Shown here: piece after piece, positions 7,154-11,657 of the stretch
Position numbering within the stretch: position 1 is the first letter of the stretch
Layout: each line of letters opens with the position of its first letter
NCBI GenBank assembly: GCA_025363655.1
Contig: JANYDK010000049.1
Location: 1-64,000, forward strand
DNA from: Deltaproteobacteria bacterium
GTDB lineage: Bacteria > Myxococcota_A > Polyangia > Polyangiales > JADJMO01
Direction of reading: 5' to 3'
Length of the DNA: 64,000 nucleotides
The notes under the pieces: model-generated
The model's database searches: none
The model's input: only the letters and a program-made list of their open reading frames with translations
What the model was told of the DNA's origin: nothing
Made by a program: the position numbers and the translations under genes

Positions 7154-7348
7154 GGCGGACGTCAGCGCGTGCAGTCGTTCACGGGAGGAGCGCGCTCCTT
7201 CTCTTCGCGCTTCGCAAACGTCGCTCTGGCGCGCCTCCGTCACGGCGATGAGACGCGGCTCGCTGCGATTCGAGCGCAATTTGCCGCAGATTCACGTCTC
7301 GCGAAGACGGCTACCCATTTGCAGAAGGATCCGAGCGGAGGCGCCTCG

Positions 7349-8212
7349 ATGCGTACACGCTGGAATGCCGTCGCTTGTGTCTTGTCTCTCTCGCTCTTCG
7401 CGTGCGGAGCCGCAGGGACCACCGAAGGCGGTGATCTCGAGGACGATGCCGGCACCTCGGCGTTCGACGTCGGTGGCGGCGGCGGTGGTGGTGGTGGCGG
7501 CGGCGACGGTGGTCTCGGCCTCGGAGGCGGTAGCGGGCTCGACGTCGGCAGCGGCAGCGACGTTTCGACGGGAACCGACACGCTCAACAAGTGCGGCAAG
7601 ACACTCACCGGCACGCTGCGCGACGTGAAGAAGACGCACGCCGACTTCGAGTACGTCATCTCCGACGATCGGGGCGTGGTCGAGTCGAAGCTCGGGAGCG
7701 ACGGCAAGCCAGTCTTCGCCAGCGGCAGTCATCCGACGATGACCACGAAATTCTCGTTCGATCAGTGGTACCGCGACGTCCCCGGCGAGAACGTCACCAT
7801 CCCGCTCTCGATCACCCTCAAGGACGCCGGCGGCGGCGTCTACACCTACGACAACGAGACGTTCTTCCCCATCGACGGCAAGGGCTTCGGCAACGAAGGC
7901 AACGCGCACAACTTCCACTTCACGTTCGAGCTCCACACCACGTTCCTCTACGGCGGCGGCGAGAAGTTCAAGTTCACCGGCGACGACGATCTCTGGGCCT
8001 TCCTCAACCAGAAACTGGCCATCGATCTCGGCGGCGTTCACGGCGCGGAATCGCAAGAGATCACGCTCGACGCGAGGGCCGCCGAGCTCGGCATCGTCAA
8101 GGGGAGCGTCTACCAACTCGACGTCTTCTCCGCCGAGAGACACACCACCGAGTCGCACTTCCGCATCGACACCACCCTCGACTTCGTCGACTGCGGGGGC
8201 GGGATCAAGTAG
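7349..8212 (+). CDS. Fibro-slime domain lipoprotein
   Basis: Predicted outer-membrane or surface lipoprotein of 287 aa. The chosen ATG gives a short basic N-terminus, a hydrophobic stretch and a lipobox (LFAC, Cys19); a longer frame from 7169 would bury the signal peptide, and GGAG lies about 9 bases before this start. A glycine-rich linker (residues about 40-75) separates the lipid anchor from a C-terminal domain with the fibro-slime/PA14-like signature ([44 protein letters not shown]). That domain is known from Dictyostelium and myxobacterial surface proteins and is thought to bind carbohydrate or matrix. The flippase gene follows within about 12 bases, so co-expression is plausible. The ligand is unknown. 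Confidence 0.85.
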
Positions 8213-8223
8213 CTCTCGTCTCC

Positions 8224-9204
8224 TTGGAGCTTCCTGCGCGATCGACGAAATCAGCCGTTTGGCGCTGGGCGCGGAGGCTCGGGCCGTGGCTCGTGTCGGC
8301 GCTCGTGCTGGTGATGCTTCTGCGGAAGTACCCGCTCGGCGAGATCGTGGGCAACATGCGCGCGGGAAACCCCTACGGCATTTTTCCGATCGCGTTCGCC
8401 TTCAGCGTCCTCCAGATTCTCCTCATCGCGCTCTGGGAGTCGCTCGTCTATCGCTCGCTCGTTCGCGAGGTGCGATGGCGTGATCTCGCGCGCGTGAAGG
8501 CCGGATGCGCGGTCCTCCAGGCCGTCGCCTACGCCGCCAACATGGGCGCGTACGGCGCTTGGATCGCACGCGCGACCGGAATCGGCGTGCGCAACGCGGT
8601 CGCGTTGATCGTCTACTTCAACTTCAGCGATCTCGTCGGGGGGTCGATCGTGCTGACCGCCAGCGTCTGGATCGGCCATGCCGACGTTCATCCGTTTCTT
8701 CGCTACGCGCCGCCGATCGTAGCGGTCGTCGTCTTCCTCGCCTTGACGCTTCCTCGCCGCGTGCCTCTCGATCCGCGCGCCGAGGCCTCCGTCTTCCGTG
8801 TCTTCCTCTCGGTGCCCAGGCTGCCTGGCGCGCTGCAGATGCTGGGGCGCACACTCAACGCGATGACGGTCGGCCTCGCGACGTGGGCTGCGGCGCGCAG
8901 CTTCGGCTTGATCGTGCCCTTGCCGGTGATGATCGTCTACATCCCCGTCGTCATGGTGGTGGGCGCGCTTCCGATCAACATCGCCGGCTTTGGCCCCGTG
9001 CAGGGGGCGTGGCTGCTCTTCTCGCCGTGGGCGCCGGGTCCGAAGATTCTCGCCTTCCAAGTTCTCTGGCAGGTTTCGCTGATGGTCTCGCAGGTGCTGC
9101 GCGGCCTTCCGTTCGTGCGCAGCGTGATGGCGGAGGTGGCCGAGGGAAGGTTGCAGTCGCAGGTGGTGCTCGGTGCTGTCTCGGCGCCGCCGAGCGACGA
9201 CTGA
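8224..9204 (+). CDS. Flippase-like integral membrane protein (lysylphosphatidylglycerol synthase TM / UPF0104 type)
   Basis: Polytopic membrane protein, about 326 aa. The frame shows successive hydrophobic segments starting with PWLVSALVLVMLL and continuing through ALIVYFNFSDLVGGSIVLT, PPIVAVVVFLALTL and VMIVYIPVVMVVGALPINIAGFG. The late motif LPINIAGFGPVQGAW resembles the conserved LPISigGlG...E segment of the YbhN/AglD/MprF-transmembrane family, proteins linked to lipid or polyprenyl-linked sugar translocation. The start is uncertain: the frame is open far upstream over the previous gene, and TTG 8224 is the first plausible codon after that gene's stop. GTG 8293 would cut into the first membrane segment. 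The stop overlaps the ATG of the next gene (TGATG), implying translational coupling. Confidence 0.72.
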   Translation: MELPARSTKSAVWRWARRLGPWLVSALVLVMLLRKYPLGEIVGNMRAGNPYGIFPIAFAFSVLQILLIALWESLVYRSLVREVRWRDLARVKAGCAVLQAVAYAANMGAYGAWIARATGIGVRNAVALIVYFNFSDLVGGSIVLTASVWIGHADVHPFLRYAPPIVAVVVFLALTLPRRVPLDPRAEASVFRVFLSVPRLPGALQMLGRTLNAMTVGLATWAAARSFGLIVPLPVMIVYIPVVMVVGALPINIAGFGPVQGAWLLFSPWAPGPKILAFQVLWQVSLMVSQVLRGLPFVRSVMAEVAEGRLQSQVVLGAVSAPPSDD

Positions 9205-10976
9205 TGCCGCTTGGCTTCGGATGCATGCGCCTCTCGACGGCGGCCGATCGGAACGAGTCGCGTGCGCTCGAGACCCTCGCAATCGCGCTCGCCGCCGGCA
9301 TCGAGCTCTTCGACACCGCTCATGCGTATGGCCTCAGCCACGAAGAAGCCGGGCACAACGAGCGGCTCCTTTCGCGCGCGATCTCGGCGAGCGGTCGCTC
9401 CGACGTTCGCATCGTCACCAAGGTCGGGCTCCGTCGCGCGGGTTCGGGCTATCGACCGGACGGACGCGCGAAGGCCATTTTCGCCGATGCAACGGACGCG
9501 GCGGCCGCGCTACATAGCCACTCTATCGATATCCTCCTCTTGCACGCACCCGATCCGGCCACGTCGCTCGAGACGAGTGTTCGTGCGCTCGCACGCGCGC
9601 AATCCGAAGGCCTCACCCGCGCGATCGGCCTCTCCAACGTCAATCTCGGCCAGCTGCAGGCCGCACTACGCATTGCGCCGATCGCCGCGGTGGAAGTCGC
9701 GCTCGGTGCCTTCGACGATGCGGCCTTGCGCGGTGGGCTGATTCGCTTCTGCGTCGAGCATGGCATCGAAGTCCTCGCGCATTCGCCCCTCGGCGGACCG
9801 ACGCGAGCGATGCGTCTCGCGCGTGACCCACTGCTCGTCGAGCTCGCCCGTACGAGGGGTGATCTGGCCTCGCCGATCGAAGTGGTGCTCGCCTATCTCG
9901 GCGCGCTCTCGCCGCACGTGGTGCCTATTCCGGGAGCGACGCAGAGAGAGACCGCGGTCAGCGTGGTCCGCGCGAGGCAGCTCGTGCTCGACGAGGCGAC
10001 GATGGTGCGCCTCGACGAACGTTTCCCCACGCTCGGCGAGTGGCGAAGGCCGCATGCGCCTGCGTCGCCCCGGCCCGACCGCGATGCGGCCGCTTCGGTG
10101 GTGCTCCTCACCGGCATCAGCGGATCCGGGAAATCACGCGCAGCGAGCGCCTTCGTCGATCGCGGGTACGTGCGCCTCAACCGCGACGAACGTGGCGGTA
10201 CCCTTCGTGGCCTCTCGCGCGCGCTCGACGAACGGCTCGCCGCCGGCTGCGCCCGCATCGTGCTCGACAACACGTACCTGACACGCGCCTCTCGCTACGA
10301 CGTGCTGGCCGTCGCCGCACGCCACGGCGTTCCCGTCCACTGCGTCCACCACGACACGCCATCGTTCGAAGCGCAGGTCAACGTCGTCCTCCGGATGGTC
10401 GCGCGTCGCGGGGCGTTGCTCAGCCCAGAGCAGCTCGAAGATGCACGTCGACTCGAGCCGGATCTCGGCGTCCTGCCCAACGTCCTCCATCGACACCTCC
10501 GCGAGCTCGAGCTGCCGGCGATGGACGAAGGCTTCGCTGCGGTCGACGTCGTGCCCTTCCGTCGCGAGCTCACCGGTGAACGGACGGGCGGCGCGCTCGT
10601 TGCCCTCGATGCGCTGATCGACGCGCGCGAAGCGGGTGATTTCGTTCGCGACGACGCCGCCTCGGTATTGATGAAGTCCCCGGAAGGCGCGCCAATTCTC
10701 GCGCTCGGTTGGCGGCCGGCGCTGCCTTCCGAACGAGTCTCCGCCCTCGAGGAGCAACTTCGCGAGCTCGCGGGGCGCGTCGGCCGAATCGTCGATCTCT
10801 TCGTCTGCACGCACCCGGCAGGACCGCCGACCTGTTGGTGCCGTCCACCTCTGCCTGGCGCGTGGCTCGAGTTCTCCGAGCGCCGCCTCGTCGCTCCGAC
10901 GCGAAGTCGACTGCTCGCCGGTGGCACGGCGCTCACGACGATGGCGCGTGGTCTCGGCTTCGCGACGGACTCCTAG
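9204..10976 (+). CDS. Aldo/keto reductase fused to polynucleotide-kinase-like P-loop domain and degenerate HAD-type tail
   Basis: A 590-residue fusion starting at an ATG that overlaps the previous stop. Residues 1 to about 285 are an aldo/keto reductase with an apparently complete catalytic tetrad (Asp37, Tyr42, Lys73, His114), so a NADPH-dependent carbonyl reductase is likely. Residues about 295-470 are a P-loop kinase of the AAA_33/T4-PNK type, with Walker A GISGSGKS (304-311), the NRDERGG segment and VLDNTYLTR. The last ~95 residues (ILALGWRP..., CTHPAGPPTCWCRPPLPG, LLAGGTALTTMARGLGF) resemble the C-terminal half of a HAD/GmhB-like phosphatase, including its Cys-rich loop. The expected acidic residues of the last HAD motif are replaced and no DxDxT motif is visible. 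The joint role is unknown; nucleic acid or metabolite repair is a guess. Confidence 0.85.
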   Translation: MPLGFGCMRLSTAADRNESRALETLAIALAAGIELFDTAHAYGLSHEEAGHNERLLSRAISASGRSDVRIVTKVGLRRAGSGYRPDGRAKAIFADATDAAAALHSHSIDILLLHAPDPATSLETSVRALARAQSEGLTRAIGLSNVNLGQLQAALRIAPIAAVEVALGAFDDAALRGGLIRFCVEHGIEVLAHSPLGGPTRAMRLARDPLLVELARTRGDLASPIEVVLAYLGALSPHVVPIPGATQRETAVSVVRARQLVLDEATMVRLDERFPTLGEWRRPHAPASPRPDRDAAASVVLLTGISGSGKSRAASAFVDRGYVRLNRDERGGTLRGLSRALDERLAAGCARIVLDNTYLTRASRYDVLAVAARHGVPVHCVHHDTPSFEAQVNVVLRMVARRGALLSPEQLEDARRLEPDLGVLPNVLHRHLRELELPAMDEGFAAVDVVPFRRELTGERTGGALVALDALIDAREAGDFVRDDAASVLMKSPEGAPILALGWRPALPSERVSALEEQLRELAGRVGRIVDLFVCTHPAGPPTCWCRPPLPGAWLEFSERRLVAPTRSRLLAGGTALTTMARGLGFATDS

Positions 10977-11000: not shown

Positions 11001-11657
11001 TCAGCAGCCTGGCGCGCGGCAGATGCCCTTCTTCACGCGTGCTGCCTCTTGCGCCTCGCCCGCCAGCTCGAGCGTGCGCACCGAAGCCGCCCGCGCCTTC
11101 GCCTGATCGTCTGGAGTCTGTGCCAATCGGAGAAGCAGCCGACGCCCGAGCGCGTGGTGGTGCACCTCGTCGGGCCCGATGATCTCGCGATAGAGACGCG
11201 CCGTCTCTTCGTCGCCACTCGCCGCGCAGTGATCGGCGAAGACGTCGTTGCGCACCTGCGCCAGCGCCTCGCGCGTGAATTGCCCCGCGGCGACACGCTC
11301 GACGGTGGTCTCGAGCGACGCGAGATAGTCGAACAGAGGTGAATAACCTTGCGCGATCGGATCGATCTTGCCGACGTCGACACCCATCTTCGCCAATCGC
11401 TCGGCGATCAACTTGTAGTGCTTGGCTTCGTCGCCGCATTGCCGCGCCAGCGCCAACTTCACCTCGACGTCGCGCTCGCGGGTCATCCACAGCGCCGCTT
11501 CTTCCGAGGCCTCGAGCTCGTTCTTCAGCGCCACATGCAGGAGGGCGGCGATGGTGACGTCCGGCCCGAGCTCACCCGCGAGCGAACGCGCGCCGAGCTC
11601 TTGGATGGTGTGCTGCACGCTCGCCGTCAGCTCCTCGACGAACTCTTCCGCGGTCAT
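11001..11657 (-). CDS. Ferritin-like di-iron protein
   Basis: An all-helical protein of 218 aa with the layout of a ferritin-like four-helix bundle. A Glu-rich first helix (NELEASEEAA, residues 47-55) is followed by ExxH at Glu77/His80 (DEAKHY), a further Glu near residue 120 and a second ExxH at Glu164/His167 (DEVHHH). This pattern fits a di-iron carboxylate site. Families with similar spacing include rubrerythrin-like and hydroxylase-like proteins, and I cannot choose between iron storage, oxidase and hydroxylase. The C-terminus ends in CRAPGC. A good ribosome site (GGGGAGAG) precedes the ATG. It lies 36 bases downstream of the TRAP binding protein gene on the same strand, so the two may form an operon. 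Confidence 0.75.
   Translation of the reverse strand: MTAEEFVEELTASVQHTIQELGARSLAGELGPDVTIAALLHVALKNELEASEEAALWMTRERDVEVKLALARQCGDEAKHYKLIAERLAKMGVDVGKIDPIAQGYSPLFDYLASLETTVERVAAGQFTREALAQVRNDVFADHCAASGDEETARLYREIIGPDEVHHHALGRRLLLRLAQTPDDQAKARAASVRTLELAGEAQEAARVKKGICRAPGC

Follow-up and report, generated by a model that had tools for sequence, protein, structure and literature searches.

Why would an aldo/keto reductase (AKR) share one polypeptide with a kinase of the kind that repairs nucleic-acid ends? The question is raised by a gene in the first 64,000 nucleotides of contig JANYDK010000049.1 from a member of the Deltaproteobacteria (this whole stretch is the window), which a first-pass annotation had read as a three-part fusion of an AKR, a PNK-like kinase and a degenerate HAD tail. 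Pfam, NCBIfam and fold matches bear that reading out. The host of the fusion is a soil bacterium. Positions 9204–10976 (+ strand) form one open frame, from an ATG at 9204 to a stop that ends at 10976, and the 590-residue product, free of internal stops, carries an AKR at residues 2–272, a PNKP-type P-loop kinase at about 294–452 and a HAD fold at about 455–590. As to what the joined parts do, we favour, as a possible rather than a probable account, an enzyme that heals polynucleotide ends and that most likely works on damaged DNA. The gene and its first two domains are laid out as follows:

9204–10976, + strand: the whole coding sequence, AKR, PNKP-type kinase and pseudo-HAD in that order, 590 residues (open reading frame, Pfam, AlphaFold2)
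9204–10040, + strand: AKR domain, about residues 1–279 (PF00248, fold match, tetrad)
9312–9314, 9327–9329, 9420–9422 and 9543–9545, + strand: codons of the tetrad residues D37, Y42, K73 and H114 (alignment of 67 homologues)
10083–10559, + strand: predicted PNKP-type 5′-kinase domain, about residues 294–452 (kinase–HAD profile against mouse PNKP; TIGR01663)
10113–10136, + strand: Walker A, GISGSGKS, residues 304–311 (G309 in 67/67 homologues, K310 in 66/67)
10179–10187, + strand: NRD segment (R327 and D328 in 67/67)
10266–10277, + strand: DNTY segment, residues 355–358 (D355 and T357 in 67/67)

The three-domain fusion is genuine, beyond chance. AlphaFold2, given the full chain and 67 aligned sequences, returned a mean predicted local distance difference test score (pLDDT) of 95.0 and a predicted template-modelling score (pTM) of 0.92. 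The first-pass annotation would have been overturned by a frameshift or read error between residues 285 and 300 that parted two independent genes in related genomes; this, and an assembly join at the AKR–kinase junction, are ruled out because the frame is open across the junction in 67 homologues. Among these are the copies in G015 and G030, whose assemblies consist of only one or two contigs. When 84,980 species' genomes were scanned with a kinase–HAD profile, 152 relatives were found, and among the best 80, which were retained, 71 are full-length AKR–kinase–HAD fusions. These occur in at least eight phyla (Myxococcota, Actinomycetota, where they are mostly in Thermoleophilia, Dormibacterota, Chloroflexota, Acidobacteriota, Gemmatimonadota, Planctomycetota and Verrucomicrobiota), with one further carrier, a metagenome-assembled genome (MAG), labelled Pseudomonadota; most carriers are MAGs, and individual phylum labels may be wrong. 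Complete genomes (Sorangium, Minicystis) carry the fusion as well, as do G015 and G030.

Within phyla the distribution is patchy: the kinase–HAD part, with or without the AKR, is present in 35 of 379 Myxococcota genomes, and the full fusion in 2 of 199 sampled genomes of the class to which locus L038 belongs and in 2 of 149 of the class of L059. A few genomes have the kinase–HAD part without the AKR (e.g., L015 and L108), and its HAD domain is intact in all those checked except L155. Searching plasmids gave matches of AKR length only and no fusion. We found no published description of an AKR–polynucleotide kinase fusion in the open-access literature, including that on RNA repair and on myxobacteria, and an earlier one elsewhere is possible. 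The architecture is recurrent, apparently undescribed so far, and assembled from known families. In one Solirubrobacterales MAG an in-frame stop within the kinase splits the fusion in two (L026, 48–1376 and 1380–1964), through either a sequencing error or a pseudogene.

The AKR is a member of its superfamily by a wide score: Pfam Aldo_ket_red (PF00248) matches residues 2–272 with E = 9.6e-41 and 140.2 bits, for a cut-off of 24. The full catalytic tetrad that had been pointed out earlier (D37, Y42, K73 and H114) is invariant among the 67 homologues except for one gap at D37 and Y42, and we predict an NADPH-using aldehyde reductase. Its nearest relatives are AKR13B2 (8hnq; VIA Z 32.1) and pyridoxal reductase. 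With the AKR13-type enzymes (AKR13B2, perakine reductase, PdxI) it shares the TIM-barrel and the complete Asp-Tyr-Lys-His tetrad; unlike them, the fusion AKRs carry a polynucleotide-kinase-type module and group apart from lone AKRs.

This kinship brings in the main rival explanation, a small-molecule enzyme, where the AKR would reduce an aldehyde metabolite (a sugar, a pyridoxal-like compound or a damaged nucleoside), the kinase would phosphorylate the new alcohol, and the HAD domain would once have been a phosphatase like GmhB or HisB. It stays alive because of the AKR's nearest relatives and because most genomes show no operon with repair genes; the tail, too, has its closest structural matches in GmhB and HisB, which are small-molecule phosphatases. 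We nevertheless consider it somewhat unlikely, given a kinase that is nearest to PNKP in sequence, with EPPxxEGF present and NRD invariant, and given the co-occurrence and proximity of Prim-Pol genes described below.

The kinase domain matches Pfam AAA_33 at residues 299–401 (E = 1.1e-12) and the NCBIfam family PNK-3′Pase (TIGR01663) at residues 294–460 (E = 3.3e-14), the latter with 52.2 bits, which does not reach the equivalog cut-off of 502.8. A search profile built from eight kinase–HAD regions (A2) matches mouse PNKP in the PDB with E = 4.5e-27 across the kinase domain, EPPxxEGF segment included; it also matches CthPnkp and T4 Pnk, more weakly, as well as GmhB and HisB over the tail. The homology to PNKP over the kinase domain thus comes together with Walker A, the Asp of NRD and EPPxxEGF. 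In the Walker A, NRDERGG and LDNTY segments, which the first-pass annotation had already picked out, Walker A, NRD (D328) and DNTY (D355) are near-invariant in the 67 homologues, and the catalytic residues essentially so; D328 is the equivalent of D396, the catalytic Asp of mammalian PNKP (PMC13066744). That the domain is a PNKP-type 5′-OH kinase is a well supported prediction.

The third part departs most from its relatives. Because AKRs filled the whole-model fold search, the tail was folded separately, and its features are these:

10566–10973, + strand: pseudo-HAD domain, about residues 455–590, with all four catalytic motifs substituted (alignment, tail model, fold match)
10710–10712, + strand: codon of W503, at the position of the HAD motif II Asn
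10806–10859, + strand: zinc loop CTHPAGPPTCWCRPPLPG, residues 535–552, with putative ligands C535, H537, C544 and C546

Folded alone (pLDDT 90.7), the modelled tail is a complete HAD domain by structural alignment, with VIA Z 11.9 over 132 residues to E. coli GmhB, 10.5 to HisB-N, 9.8 to the T4 Pnkp phosphatase, 9.5 to mouse PNKP and 8.8 to bacterial Pnkp1; 4xrp is also among the fold matches. The earlier description of a degenerate HAD tail with a Cys-rich loop stands in both respects, except that it had seen only the second half of the fold, and the first HAD motif, which it could not find, is in place in mutated form. Specifically, in the window protein DxDGT of motif I reads A467-L-D469-A-L, with Ala at the nucleophile position, S-N of motif II is G502-W503, the Lys of motif III is P548, and GDxxxD of motif IV is AGxxxL (residues 572–577), leaving neither the nucleophile Asp nor motifs I–IV of an active phosphatase.

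Four lost motifs, and a tail length that varies, are what one would expect of a decaying, non-functional phosphatase remnant. We reject this explanation, which we regard as very improbable, on the conservation of the 54 fusions with a degenerate HAD. The four putative zinc ligands (C-x-H...C-x-C) are present in 67 of 67 homologues, and the degenerate clade keeps them together with R547 in 54/54. Three residues are newly fixed there: W503 in 52/54, where the intact form has Asn; W545 in 54/54, where it has Phe or Tyr; and G540 in 54/54, where 12/13 intact copies have Phe. Because the zinc ligands are kept and the new Trp and Gly residues are fixed across six phyla, the tail does not appear to be decaying; judged by its alignment, it is a conserved pseudophosphatase, apparently repurposed for binding. 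The degeneration is graded: 17/54 retain the Lys of motif III, and 17/54 the second Asp of motif IV.

The same data bear on whether the parts cooperate at all. Two independent housekeeping activities might simply have been joined long ago and share no pathway, the HAD domain being kept merely as a structural cap; coupling between fusion partners is not obligatory, and the AlphaFold2 model is a compact whole. Since the three parts are kept together over distant phyla and the tail has been altered in a specific, conserved way, we find this unlikely.

How the degenerate form arose can be followed in the 67 aligned full-length fusions; the HAD domain is degenerate in 54 of them and intact in 13. 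The intact sister fusions carry DxDGT, SNQ and GDxxxD and come from Planctomycetota, Verrucomicrobiota, Sorangium and Nannocystis; the degenerate clade spans six phyla. A tree of the AKR and kinase columns only places the degenerate form on one side of a branch with a Shimodaira–Hasegawa-like approximate likelihood ratio test (SH-aLRT) value of 100, and when 10 lone AKRs are included in a tree built from the AKR part alone, degenerate fusions, intact fusions and lone AKRs make up one group each; the trees are unrooted and the lone AKRs thinly sampled. Because the AKR-only tree repeats the split between dead and intact forms, with the lone AKRs outside, a single fusion with joint descent is favoured, and the recurrence in at least eight phyla would go back to one apparent origin. 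A single fusion event and, after it, a single loss of phosphatase catalysis make up the history that the sequences favour, short of proof. Some Myxococcota genomes have two paralogues each, namely G101 (L156/L163), G041 (L157/L158), G165 (L112/L151), G148 (L106/L150) and G254 (L120/L152); in G101, G041 and G254 one paralogue has an intact and the other a dead HAD domain, a natural pair for comparison.

The likeness to known end-processing enzymes is considerable. With mammalian PNKP the fusion shares a kinase with Walker A, NRD, DNT, the lid Arg and EPPxxEGF and, on the same polypeptide, a HAD phosphatase whose motifs are intact in the sister clade. It differs in having an AKR where PNKP has its N-terminal FHA domain, the kinase ahead of the phosphatase, and, in this clade, a dead phosphatase with a zinc Cys loop of the GmhB/HisB type. 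T4 Pnkp and bacterial Pnkp1 have the same order of kinase and HAD, and the tail aligns with their phosphatases; the fusion kinase is nearer the eukaryotic type, an AKR is added, and no Rnl/Hen1 partner is seen. GmhB and HisB-N have the HAD fold and zinc-binding C-x-H...C-x-C loop of the tail, which differs from them in lacking the catalytic motifs, in its new conserved Trp and GPP signature, and in being joined to a kinase. The dead PNK domain of hnRNPUL1 and the C-terminal HAD-like domain of Nir2 are parallels, being pseudoenzymes in which a catalytic fold has been put to use in binding, except that in the fusion it is the phosphatase that is dead, the kinase retaining its catalytic residues. 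The family offers a clear natural example of a phosphatase turned conserved pseudophosphatase, with a sister form that has the catalytic motifs for comparison. It also places a PNKP-type kinase–phosphatase in many bacterial phyla where the annotation probably says only 'aldo/keto reductase'.

If the fusion protein heals polynucleotide ends, the kinase would transfer phosphate from ATP onto a 5′-OH end, a step strongly supported by its family, and the AKR, with NADPH as reductant, would turn an aldehyde into an alcohol, plausibly at the same end, so that a 5′-aldehyde would become the 5′-OH that is the kinase's substrate. That the AKR prepares this 5′-OH is suggested because the order of the chemistry fits; that it acts on a DNA substrate we infer. 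The ancestral C-terminal domain would have been a 3′-phosphatase, and apparently still is one in the sister clade, while in the dead clade it may act as a Trp-bearing holder, stapled by zinc, that perhaps grips a partner protein or the 3′ side of a gap. The 3′-phosphates would be left to other enzymes, and the LigD phosphoesterase is one 3′-phosphatase that the dead-HAD form could rely on. Others are those of LigC repair: Prim-PolC performs excision repair with LigC, and EndoIV and XthA serve as 3′-phosphatases there (PMC5663958). The 5′-phosphate made by the kinase would be what gap repair by a stand-alone Prim-Pol and an ATP-dependent ligase needs; Prim-PolC uses the gap's 5′-phosphate for binding and synthesis (PMC7442782).

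The 2′-deoxyribonucleoside-5′-aldehyde would be a fitting lesion, because radical attack produces it in abundance, it persists with a half-life of days, and a 2025 review lists no dedicated repair enzyme for it, the routes given there for 5′-aldehyde ends being non-specific strand displacement and flap removal alone (PMC12564780). In its most specific form the proposal is the first dedicated direct reversal of aldehyde-blocked DNA ends: the AKR would convert the 5′-aldehyde to 5′-OH, the fused kinase would phosphorylate it at once to give a ligatable end without nucleotide loss, and the zinc-binding pseudophosphatase would hold the gap. Taken as a whole this scheme is unlikely. The fusion architecture would form a new category only if its AKR does act on DNA ends. 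Among the main and long-lived lesions that radicals and enediynes leave in DNA are 5′-aldehyde ends, and the recurrent reductase–kinase fusion is a concrete, easily testable candidate for their direct reversal.

Genomic association also bears on the repair role. In L035 and L038 a stand-alone LigD-type Prim-Pol overlaps the fusion or lies 98 bp from it. A stand-alone Prim-Pol lies ∼2.1 kb off in L024, with an HHH/PHP-domain protein (PolX-type polymerase domain make-up) in between, and ∼2.4 kb off in L059, with an adjoining ATP-dependent DNA ligase. From the copy numbers in the 30 carrier genomes outside Myxococcota, and for the flanks seen only, 0.31 near-fusion Prim-Pols are expected and four were found (P ≈ 3e-4, or 4e-3 when counted as three lineages). 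G015 and G030, of one genus, have a pair of Prim-Pol and ATP-dependent ligase genes 6–8 kb from the fusion. LigD-Pol is present in all 30 carrier genomes outside Myxococcota, compared with 69/99 and 72/101 in two sampled classes. In Myxococcota 13/19 carriers of the dead-HAD form have it, compared with 1/16 of the other carriers and 63/344 of the non-carriers (Fisher's exact test, 6e-6 against non-carriers and 3e-4 against other carriers); at family level the figures are 7/10 versus 1/9 (p = 0.02). Ku is present in 8/19, 0/16 and 61/344 respectively, the split by HAD state being post hoc.

We take the Prim-Pol association as moderate, not decisive, evidence for a repair role, and several points count against an end-healing function. 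Pooled over all Myxococcota carriers, Ku is present in 8/35 genomes versus 61/344, no clear association; a signal shows up only once the carriers are divided by HAD state. The post hoc nature of the HAD-state split applies to all these comparisons, with genome size and, beyond family level, shared ancestry uncontrolled. Of the four loci outside Myxococcota with a Prim-Pol nearby, three belong to Actinomycetota, L035 and L038 being close relatives, and G613, another carrier of the same Actinomycetota class, has no Prim-Pol within ∼7 kb. Most copies of the fusion are unlinked to Prim-Pol, and the window's own genome has its Prim-Pols on other contigs. No conserved operon was found, the adjacent genes being unrelated at most loci examined. 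Finally, the AKR is much like AKR13 and pyridoxal reductase, ordinary AKRs that act on small molecules, and a search of it for fusion-specific basic or DNA-binding surface residues found none.

The linked genes also bear on whether RNA is the substrate. PNKP-type kinases serve RNA repair too, as in Pnkp1-Rnl-Hen1 (PMC4411300), and the match of the tail to 4xrp would fit a kinase that heals 5′-OH RNA ends made by ribotoxins, with the AKR acting on oxidised RNA ends or in redox regulation. We judge this distinctly unlikely: among the neighbours scanned there is no RNA ligase, Hen1 or RtcB, and the linked genes are those of DNA Prim-Pols and DNA ligases.

The gene upstream of the fusion in the window is:

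8293–9204, + strand: LPG_synthase_TM-like membrane protein gene, overlapping the start of the fusion (PF03706, E = 1.9e-6, below the cut-off)

A TGATG overlap joins the two, so that the translational coupling to a flippase-like gene proposed in the first-pass annotation has a real basis, specific to this genome. The gene was not found directly beside the relatives' copies; G015 and G030 have a Rieske/VanA_C oxygenase there, and other relatives a gene on the opposite strand. A conserved operon with the flippase-like gene is ruled out, the neighbour being specific to the window genome, and the gene is probably outside the system. The intact-HAD form likewise has unrelated neighbours and no common partner. 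In two Dormibacterota loci (L030, 14020–15063, and L037, 12070–13116) flippase-like membrane proteins, of the LPG_synthase_TM type by eye, lie kilobases downstream of the fusion, probably by coincidence. Just upstream of the flippase-like gene in the window, positions 7169–8212 encode a PA14-domain protein (PF07691, 5e-7) that also contains a long run rich in glycine. Downstream of the fusion, positions 11001–11657 (− strand) encode a ferritin-like protein with a DUF455 match (3e-10) and weak MiaE-like and rubrerythrin matches. In four related genomes, MAGs of the Archangium/Myxococcus type (L066, L073, L077 and L083), a response-regulator-like gene is kept 15–28 bp upstream of the fusion.

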